The notes under the pieces: model-generated
What the model saw: the letters and a program-made list of their open reading frames with translations, nothing else
Database searches by the model: none
Told to the model about the DNA's origin: nothing
Made by a program: the position numbers and the translations under genes
Shown here: positions 58,710 through 62,934 of the stretch, in pieces
Layout: the number at the start of each line of letters is the position of its first letter
Position numbering within the stretch: the stretch's first letter is position 1
DNA from: Deltaproteobacteria bacterium
GTDB lineage: Bacteria > Myxococcota_A > UBA796 > GCA-2862545
Length of the DNA stretch: 64,000 nucleotides
NCBI GenBank assembly: GCA_006226595.1
Contig: SBGP01000098.1
Coordinates: 1 to 64,000 of the forward strand
Direction: 5' to 3'

Positions 58710-58787
58710 GGGCACCTCCGTGGGCACAGTGTACGCCGGAGATGCAGGCGGCGCGTTTCGGTGGCACCCTCGCCCCGTGGAGTGTGC

Positions 58788-60002
58788 ATGCAAGGAGCGG
58801 AAGCGCTGGCTCGCGCGGTGGATCGGCAGCGGCTGGACAACGCCCATCGCGTCAACCTGGTCCGACTGATCGGGGTCGGCGGATGGATGGTGTTCTGCCT
58901 GATCTTCGGGCTCGGATGGGGCAAGCCGTTCTTCACCGAGGCGCTGCCGACGGTGGCCGTGTACCTCATTGTCGCGACGGTCCTCTACTTCGGCGCTCGG
59001 TCGCGAGAGGCCATGGCCCAGGCCAGCGCCTACGCCCCTGCCCTGCTCGATCTGCCCGCCATCTTCCTGATCACGCGCCCGCTCGTGCGCCTCGCCGACG
59101 ACCCGGACGCCACCGCCGCCCAGACCGTCTCCATCCTCATGGTCGTGGTGGTCCTCACCGTGCTCGGTCTGCGTCAAAGCCTGCTGTGGCTCGCGTGCGC
59201 CATGGCCGCGACGATGGCCGCCTTCCTGCACTGGGAGGTGGGCTCCCCCGTGGTGACGATGATCACCGGGGCCTTCGTCGTGTTCCTGCTCGCCATCGTG
59301 TCGCAGTACGTGCAGGAGCGACTGCTGCAGCTCGCACAACGCCTCGCCGCCGAGCAGATCGCCCTGTCCCGCCTCGGTCGCTACTTCTCACCTGCCGTCG
59401 CCCAACGGATCCGTCGCGACCATCGCGACGACGCCAGCCTCGAGGAGCGCGACGTCTCGATCCTGTTCTGCGACATCCGGGGCTTCACGCGCCTCGCCTC
59501 GGAGCTCGACCAGGCCGACGTCGCCGATGTGCTCAACGCGTACCTCGCGCGCATGGTCGAGGTGATCTTCGAGCACGAAGGCACCCTCGACAAGTTCATG
59601 GGCGACGGCATCCTCGCGTACTTCGGCGCCCCGCTGACCCAGCCGGACCACGCCGATCGCGCGGTCGCGTGCGGCCTCGGCATGCTTGCCGCTCTCGACG
59701 AGGTGAACGCGACCTTCGCCGAGGCGGGACTGCCGCAGCTGCGCGTCGGCATCGGCATTCACTCGGGCCCTGCCCTCGTCGGCAACATCGGCCCGGCGCT
59801 GCGCAAGGAGTTCACGGTCATCGGCGACAGCGTGAACCTCGCGTCCCGCATCGAAGGACTGACGAAGGTGCACGGCGAGGCCCTGCTCGTCTCGGAGGCC
59901 ACCCGCGAGCGCATCGAAGGCCGCGACTGGCGCCCCATCAAGGCCACGCCGGTCCGCGGTCGCGTGGACCCGGTCCAGACCTGGGTTCCCCTCGCGCACT
60001 GA
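58788..60002 (+). CDS. Class III adenylate/guanylate cyclase with membrane region
   Basis: A 404-residue protein. Five or six hydrophobic helices span about residues 28-172, then a helical linker ([25 protein letters not shown]) and a class III cyclase domain. Metal-binding Asp229 (LFCDIRGFT) and Asp273 ([12 protein letters not shown]) are present, and the transition-state region reads [12 protein letters not shown] with Asn and Arg. It should make cAMP (or cGMP). ATG at 58788 follows GTGGAG. Convergent with the RNA candidate on the other strand; only 8 bases separate its stop from the terminator tail. Confidence 0.92.
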
Positions 60003-60010
60003 GCGCACCC

Positions 60011-60050
60011 GAAACGAAAGAACCCCCGAGATCCGAAGATCCCGGGGGTT
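60011..60050 (-). terminator. Intrinsic terminator read on the minus strand
   Basis: A 13-pair stem (60021-60033 with 60038-60050, one G-U pair) closed by a C(UUCG)G tetraloop when read on the minus strand, followed by CTTTCGTTTC. The T-rich side and the stable loop exist only in that orientation; the plus-strand reading has an A-rich approach and no T-run. As no minus-strand protein gene ends nearby, it marks the 3' end of the RNA gene candidate. Confidence 0.85.
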
Positions 60051-61257
60051 CATGATGACATCCGAACGGCCCGTGGAACGTCCCTGCAGAGGCTTGCGCA
60101 TCACCCGGGATTCGCGACTGCAAGCAGTCGCGGCAGCTCCTGAAGTTCGCCTGTTCTTCAGGGTCCCGGACGCAGCCGAACTGGTCGTCCATCGAACCGT
60201 CGCGTAGCGGGTGGTCTGGGTTCTTTCCCGCTCCCCTCGTGACCTTCCGCTGTCGCCAGCCGGGCCTCCAGGGTCTTCCGCGACGGTCCAGCGCGCGAGG
60301 CTGTCTCCAGTCTCGCGTGCGAACCCTCTGAACTTGGCGCTGCATGAGCGCTCTCGTGTGAGCCGGCTCGTGGTGTCGAGCCATCCTCTCGTGGGATTCG
60401 TTCGAGTGCGTGCCCCGCTGCCGACGGCACTGGGGGAGTCGCGCATCCGAGGCGGCCCCCAGGCCATCCTCGCGCTTCCGTCCTCGTGGTTTCGCACCAC
60501 CTCGACGGTTTCCTCCTCCCTCCAGCTTGCGGGCTTGTTGCATCCCACAGCCAGCCGGGGTTCGACGCGTTTCCGCGGACACCCGCCTCGGACCTCTCGG
60601 CACCGAGAACGAGCATGCGCTTTCCCGCATCGCTGTTCACACCCTTCGAAGAATACCCCTCACCGGCAGCCGTACCGCATCACTGCGGCCGTTACCCCCC
60701 TGGTGTTCCCTCGCTCGCCGCCGAAGCGGCGAACCGGTCAGGCGCCGAGGCTCCGGTCCGAAGACCTCCACGTCGACGCGGGACCTGCGCTGTCGCATCC
60801 AGGCTCCACCGCAAGCGGCTTCACCCGGGGCTCGAGCGGAGCGTCACCTTCGAGGTGTTGCTCCACCGATGAGTCCGTAGCATCCCCGAGCGTTGCCGCT
60901 CGTAGGACGCCCTATCCTTCCATGGGCTTGGTTCCCCTCCAAGGTCCGACCACGGCGTCCGAAGACGTCGCCTCCGCCCGCTCACCGTTCGCGCAAGCAC
61001 GAGCGGCTGTGGCCACCCGAGAACGGGGACCACCGAAGCGCCTGTGAGGCGCCCGACCGCGATGCCTCGCGGCCGACGACATCCCGGCGTGGGTTCCAGC
61101 GCATGAGCGCCTGCCCAGACCGTCTGTCCGGAGGTGTCGGTGCAGCCATTCGACGTCCCGAGGGACGCGGTCGACTGCCGACCTTCATGGGGTTTGTGAC
61201 GTCAAAGAGCGCTCCGAGGAGCGTTCCCTCGGTCGACACCGGTCGCCCGGAAGTCAC
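60011..61257 (-). ncRNA. Candidate large structured noncoding RNA (about 1.25 kb)
   Basis: No open frame here has the codon character of the neighbours. On the minus strand the stretch is dense in stable hairpins: C(UUCG)G loops at 60716-60731, 60755-60766, 60956-60967 and in the terminator; G(CUUG)C loops at 60113-60132 and 60809-60818; a GUGA loop at 60675-60688; long stems at 61038-61052, 61155-61166 and 61210-61223. On the other strand the UUCG loops would be CGAA, so strand choice is clear. A sigma54 promoter predicts a start near 61257 and an intrinsic terminator ends it. It is not RNase P, tmRNA, 6S or rRNA by any motif I know. The 1,489 bases 60003-61491 hold nothing else but the promoter region. 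Confidence 0.7.
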
Positions 61258-61266
61258 TTCCCAGCA

Positions 61267-61284
61267 ATGCAGGCGGCGTGCCAA
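61267..61284 (-). promoter_or_regulatory. Sigma54 (-24/-12) promoter
   Basis: Read on the minus strand the sequence is TTGGCACG-CCGC-CTGCA. It matches the sigma54 consensus YTGGCACG-N4-TTGCW at every position but one, and the GG and GC pairs are exactly 10 bases apart as required. It predicts transcription starting near 61257 and running towards lower coordinates into the structured region. The adjacent upstream gene on the same strand encodes a sigma54 activator. Confidence 0.82.
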
Positions 61285-61326
61285 CTCGCGCGAACGACGA
61301 AAGCTCGGTTTTCGCGGATTGCGGTG

Positions 61327-61462
61327 GGATCTGAACTTCCCGGGCTGCTCTTCGTCAGCTGTCCGGCTCGTGCGGACTCGCGGCGATCCCAGGCGCGAAG
61401 TGCCGCATCGTTACTGGCTCCTCGCCGCTGTGGCGAGCGCGGAACGCAGCGGGATCTGGACT
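61327..61462 (-). promoter_or_regulatory. Candidate enhancer sites for the sigma54 activator
   Basis: Upstream of the sigma54 promoter are three kinds of symmetric or repeated sequence: the direct repeat AGTyCAGATCCC (minus strand) at 61327-61338 and 61451-61462; the inverted repeat GTCCG-N7-CGGAC at 61361-61377; and CTCGCC-N5-GGCGAG at 61421-61437. They lie about 70-205 bases before the predicted start, the usual range for activator sites. Which one is bound cannot be told from sequence. Confidence 0.45.
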
Positions 61463-61491
61463 GCCCAAATGCGGATTGTGAAAACGACGGC

Positions 61492-62910
<1,419 letters not shown>

Positions 62911-62934
62911 GCGTTGCCCTCGCTGCACGCACGG

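Follow-up and report, generated by a model that had tools for sequence, protein, structure and literature searches.

Bacteria have only a handful of described classes of very large non-coding RNA, and what these RNAs do is poorly understood (PMC12286853). OLE, GOLLD and ROOL assemble into RNA-only complexes. The OLE RNA studied is 577 nt long, and OLE is implicated in cellular stress adaptation; the ROOL RNA studied is 659 nt long, and ROOL is found in phages and prophages; GOLLD occurs in prophages and phages, often near tRNAs, and many of its members exceed 800 nt (PMC12286853).

Here, these RNAs are compared with a locus in the window, that is, the whole 64-kb stretch of DNA analysed, from the genome of a Deltaproteobacteria bacterium. 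We read the locus as a gene in its own right, the product of which is a large non-coding RNA that is extensively structured, acts in trans and belongs to a family absent from Rfam 15. The features of the gene and its surroundings are listed in Table 1, where the ends of what appears to be a complete non-coding transcription unit are predicted from the promoter and the terminator.

Table 1. Positions of the RNA gene, its conserved and predicted elements, and the adjoining genes in the window.
Feature	Position	Strand	Remarks
Nucleotide-cyclase gene	58761-60002	plus	Other neighbour of the RNA region
Large non-coding RNA gene	60012-61257	minus	About 1.24 kb, from the predicted +1 (61257) through the terminator
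Intrinsic terminator	60010-60051	minus	14-bp stem with UUCG loop at 60020-60051 (GAACCCCCGGGATC-UUCG-GATCTCGGGGGTTC); tail UUUCGUUUCG
Terminal conserved block	60069-60090	minus	UCUGCAGGGACGUUCCACGGGC; common to the window and its syntenic orthologue L035
Conserved 3' domain (model R1)	60471-60709	minus	GNRA hairpin, long-range helix round a variable insert, two more hairpins
Conserved block 2	60838-60946	minus	CCUUGGAGGGGAACCAAGCCCAUGGAAGG, then GNRA (GGCAAC)-capped helix, then ACGGACUC..GGAGCAA
Conserved block 1	61176-61235	minus	Contains GCUCUUUGACGUCACAAACCCCAUGAAGG; about 60-130 nt past the promoter in relatives
Sigma-54 promoter (predicted)	61268-61284	minus	TTGGCACGCCGCCTGCA (GG-N10-GC); score 25 of 26.5
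UAS palindrome (predicted)	61325-61342	minus	CGGGAAGTTCAGATCCCA; 18 bp; agrees with the consensus at 11 of 12 positions; 40 bp upstream of the promoter
Possible second, distal UAS	61450-61467	minus	TGGGCAGTCCAGATCCCG; 10 of 12 positions
Response regulator with sigma-54 activator domain and Fis HTH	61492-62928	minus	Adjoins the RNA gene upstream

The preliminary description had likened the region to OLE, GOLLD and ROOL, a likeness that holds for size and complexity only, with no homology to any of them. The covariance models of OLE, GOLLD, ROOL, HEARO and the other large RNAs in Rfam did not match. No Rfam 15 family was found in the region at E ≤ 5 except at the terminator hairpin (a chance match to the His leader), none at the gathering threshold in the window and its homologues, and none at E ≤ 1 in the sister-clade and distant loci. 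Like GOLLD, the RNA is very large and ornate; it differs in that it matches no Rfam model, that no tRNA was found in the window and that no relative was found on phages, plasmids or viral contigs, as well as in the greater length of its family (1.1-2.7 kb, against more than 800 nt for many GOLLD) and in its predicted sigma-54 promoter. As with ROOL, it is a large structured RNA that stands alone and for which no protein partner is known, but it does not match the ROOL model; the ROOL studied is 659 nt long, and ROOL is borne by phages and prophages (PMC12286853). Similarly, it is large and highly structured like OLE (577 nt in the RNA studied; PMC12286853), but matches no OLE model and has no conserved partner gene beside it. 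The phage or prophage location, often near tRNAs, that marks GOLLD and ROOL was not observed, and a viral, plasmid or phage origin was rejected since no relative was found in phage, plasmid and viral (IMG/VR) collections, the viral scans being made with strict patterns. By its size (more than 500 nt), covariation-supported structure and non-coding nature, the RNA belongs to the broad kind of large ornate bacterial RNAs, which is not a homology family. No earlier description was found in a literature search that reached few subscription papers and preprints.

The four C(UUCG)G hairpins noted previously were recovered on the minus strand (stem of at least 4 bp), compared with 0.03 in 500 dinucleotide shuffles and none on the plus strand. 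The folding energy of the minus strand is −650 kcal/mol, compared with −593 ± 13 kcal/mol for dinucleotide shuffles (z = −4.3). The plus strand also folds below its shuffles (z = −3.3), and the folding energy alone would therefore not decide the strand. The earlier view that the structures make sense on the minus strand only thus rests on the tetraloops, the promoter and the terminator, which together assign the RNA to that strand. The terminator had been called textbook; its UUCG-loop hairpin stands, but its U-tract is broken up. Similar terminators are located at the homology ends of many paralogues.

The structure is conserved by compensatory change. In the 3' domain (60471-60708 of the window), the alignment of 20 copies has 32 predicted pairs, 21 of which show at least one double-sided compensatory change; another count for this domain gives 19 of 31 pairs changed on both sides. 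Across 17 copies, 97.0% of the cells are paired, compared with 83.9% in partner-shuffled and 34-47% in slid controls, and the covariation score is 0.482, compared with 0.213 and 0.06-0.09, respectively. None of 500 shuffles reaches any of the observed pairing or covariation measures, and the covariation of this domain is overwhelming. A GNRA hairpin caps another covarying helix, in block 2, where pairs 27-30/58-61 and 39-40/49-50 have changes on both sides in 6 to 12 sequences each, given as raw counts. A fold of the whole RNA from 12 copies has 244 pairs, 104 of them with double-sided changes, and is illustrative because the structure was drawn from the same alignment; the alignment that mixes clades (A3) is poor where the RNA is variable. 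Among 15 copies, CUUCGG occurs 71 times on the sense strand against 9.6 expected, GNRA hairpin closings are enriched on the same strand, and the motif CCCANGRNAG, which lies inside the conserved structured blocks, occurs 21 times against 1.3 in shuffled sequences. These elements may be the building blocks of a compact tertiary structure.

The alternative that the region encodes a fast-evolving protein could draw on open reading frames that reach 278 aa on the antisense strand and 204 aa on the sense strand. These frames differ from copy to copy and are attributable to chance in GC-rich DNA. The three frames tested have no Pfam match, no conserved protein was found, and no codon periodicity is evident in the substitutions among homologues (p = 0.20 and 0.34). 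Of the 31 indels that separate the 94.5% identical pair of copies, only 3 are in frame, and 79 of 82 are out of frame between L032 and L033, which indicates that the paralogues are non-coding. A protein-coding reading of either strand was therefore rejected; it is refuted in practice, its probability being negligible, in agreement with the earlier statement that no credible frame is present. That the locus is a real conserved gene for a structured RNA can hardly be doubted, and the earlier suggestion of an undescribed family is supported by the lack of an Rfam match, by the homologues and by the strong covariation.

A blastn search of the window's own genome found further copies, and the proposed search of related genomes found homologues, with 26 of 94 genomes matching initially (the window's own counted). 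The covariance model R1 matched 43 of the 94 relatives, with E-values down to 1e-69. A broader model, R2, matched 58 of 284 genomes sampled across the phylum, where the matches are mainly sequence evidence because the R2 consensus structure is poor (9 pairs). The matches of the two models span about 41 genera, and each genome has one to six copies in unrelated neighbourhoods; six were counted in a sister-clade genome, G063. By a tally of R1 matches and promoter patterns, the order has about 40 carriers among the 63 genomes, a count affected by contigs that often break inside the RNA and by a first-look filter that scores few candidates. A gene with several copies would be expected to cause such breaks in a draft assembly. 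In the window's genome, the ends of contigs C110 and C42 bear complementary parts of the RNA, so that this genome probably has three copies. The carriers are a group of soil and water bacteria, and those named in the contig scan (strict pattern, 7 records) are uncultured genomes labelled 'Deltaproteobacteria' or 'Proteobacteria'; their phylum is probably Myxococcota.

The homologous matches comprise four blocks, the order of which is constant among relatives, separated by spacers of about 100 nt to about 1.5 kb. The paralogues resemble one another from just upstream of the promoter to the terminator and then diverge, with the copies lying in unrelated contexts. The unit length ranges from about 1.08 kb, in a compact copy of genome G053, to 2.71 kb, with 1.24 kb in the window. 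The comparison of copies delineates a conserved unit that consists of a putative enhancer palindrome, a predicted sigma-54 promoter, an RNA of 1.1-2.7 kb with structured blocks and variable inserts, and a terminator. In three copies of genome G003 (L032, L033 and L034), blocks 2 and 3 are set apart by an additional insert of about 1.4 kb, which brings these RNAs to about 2.7 kb; no consistent or conserved frame was found in this insert when it was inspected by eye for an open reading frame in the style of HEARO or a group II intron.

The presence of several copies in unrelated contexts, with a large conserved RNA core and variable inserts, would also be expected of a mobile element or an intron-like ribozyme, such as a degenerate group II intron, that had multiplied within the genome. 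A recent near-identical pair in genome G048 (L097 and L098, 94.5% identical over 1.5 kb in unrelated gene contexts) points the same way, and would result from the unit between promoter and terminator having been duplicated, or altered by gene conversion, in recent times. Nevertheless, the copies in the order are preceded by a conserved sigma-54 promoter of their own, mostly accompanied by a UAS, and many end in an intrinsic terminator, features that mark a gene and not an intron. Moreover, no group I or group II intron was matched in Rfam at E ≤ 5, no protein common to the inserts or flanks was found, and one copy is syntenic between genera (the window and L035). A mobile origin is accordingly considered very unlikely. 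In three sister-clade genomes, one copy (L085, L091 and L095) lies beside what seems to be the same M24-type aminopeptidase gene, forming an orthologous locus.

The 5' end of the gene is predicted at 61257, 12 nt past the −12 GC of the promoter, and coincides with the boundary given in the preliminary description. The promoter has a GG-N10-GC element near the consensus TTGGCACG-N4-TTGCA, and the order-level copies examined have TTGGCACG-N4/5-TGCA with GG-N10-GC upstream of block 1. In 745 kb of the window and the loci, both strands included, only 23 sites score at least 23 of 26.5, and 21 of them are promoters of RNA copies in the correct place and orientation, where the score uses the published consensus but was framed, like the palindrome consensus, after the first sites had been seen. 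The site in Table 1 is the only one of this score in the whole window. Most copies have the palindrome TGGGAW-N6-WTYCCCA, in the sequence form TGGGAAATNNATTTCCCA, 36-42 bp upstream of the promoter, the match being weak in L034, L035, L045 and L093. Second sites matching at least 10 of 12 positions are also located at L038, L041, L096, L097, L098, L099, L101 and L103. The window (61450-61467), L041, L096, L099, L101 and L103 have a further palindrome, located about 115-165 bp ahead of the promoter, and in most copies a conserved A-rich element, CGAAAAnnGnGGTTC, lies in the stretch from the palindrome to the promoter.

When the 63 genomes of the order were searched with the combined pattern of palindrome and promoter, 24 matches were obtained, compared with 0 for the reversed control. 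Block 1 follows in 21 of these; two more, in G058, have matches to the RNA model (one cut by a contig end), and at the remaining one, in G021, the contig ends 52 nt downstream. All 24 are consistent with copies of the large RNA. No other gene with the combination was found in these genomes, which suggests a putative dedicated sigma-54 switch for the RNA. Control by sigma-54, as predicted from these elements, is considered very probable, and the same high confidence applies to the conserved structured RNA gene and its sigma-54 control taken jointly. CrcZ/CrcY and GlmY are also non-coding RNAs made from a −24/−12 promoter with an activator-binding site, as is predicted here. Those RNAs are a few hundred nt or less in length and simple in structure, whereas the present family is 1.1-2.7 kb long with a conserved multi-domain structure.

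The gene adjoining the RNA upstream encodes a sigma-54 activator on the same strand, and its stop codon is about 207 bp ahead of the promoter. This arrangement would allow the RNA to be a long 3' UTR of the activator gene or a read-through product, a reading that is highly improbable given the sigma-54 promoter between the two and the unrelated genes upstream of the other copies. By its position only, the activator is a possible candidate for the regulator of the RNA. It is one of 24 similar proteins in the window's genome, and no such gene lies beside the other copies; as a dedicated regulator it was rejected. No Pfam family was found in more than 3 of the 49 flanking proteins, so that a shared neighbour as functional partner was also rejected. 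Since the flanking genes are not shared, the RNA probably acts in trans.

In the sister clade, which is separated at the class level, the homologous RNA has no sigma-54 site. In nine sister-clade loci, a sigma-70-like TTGCCN-N17-TASTNT precedes the first conserved block, as found with a loose pattern used without a background control; sigma-70-like loci are listed in genomes G063, G066 and G067 (L084-L091, L094 and L095). The promoter appears to have been switched between the sister clade and the window's order during evolution. The RNA is therefore probably older than its sigma-54 control, which is probably the younger feature.

A possible course of events is as follows. In the window's order, sigma-54 RNA polymerase would be poised at the RNA promoter, and an enhancer-binding protein recognising TGGGAW-N6-WTYCCCA would turn the gene on under some signal. 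The RNA core would then fold and act as a structural particle or scaffold, either alone or with proteins, and the variable inserts may form peripheral arms. The scaffold or particle role, suggested by analogy with OLE, GOLLD and ROOL, is judged to have somewhat less than an even chance. The wider proposal, of a class of giant RNAs that extends across the phylum, reaches 2.7 kb and forms an RNA particle or RNP, which one order would have placed under a dedicated sigma-54 enhancer-binding protein and would make on a signal, is more tentative still.

The main rival for the role of the RNA is that of a sponge, decoy or antisense RNA, which would pair with mRNAs or sequester a regulator. Small RNAs controlled by sigma-54 or its activators are known to act in this way, CrcZ/CrcY being sigma-54-dependent decoys. 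GlmY is reported to act as a decoy (PMC7073468). The repeated CCCANGRNAG could likewise be protein-binding sites. However, the motif is part of the conserved structured blocks, and the size of the RNA and its phylum-wide structural conservation go beyond the needs of a decoy, a role which is regarded as rather unlikely.

The RNA family of the window is longer than OLE, ROOL and GOLLD. It is so widespread that cultured relatives probably exist, and its conserved regulatory switch should predict when the RNA is made. If this reading is true, no ornate large RNA with a sigma-54 switch of its own has, to our knowledge, been known before. With a predicted switch and a defined gene, the long-standing question of what a giant RNA does can be put to a direct test by way of the rpoN regulon, the palindrome-binding activator and the deletion of the gene.
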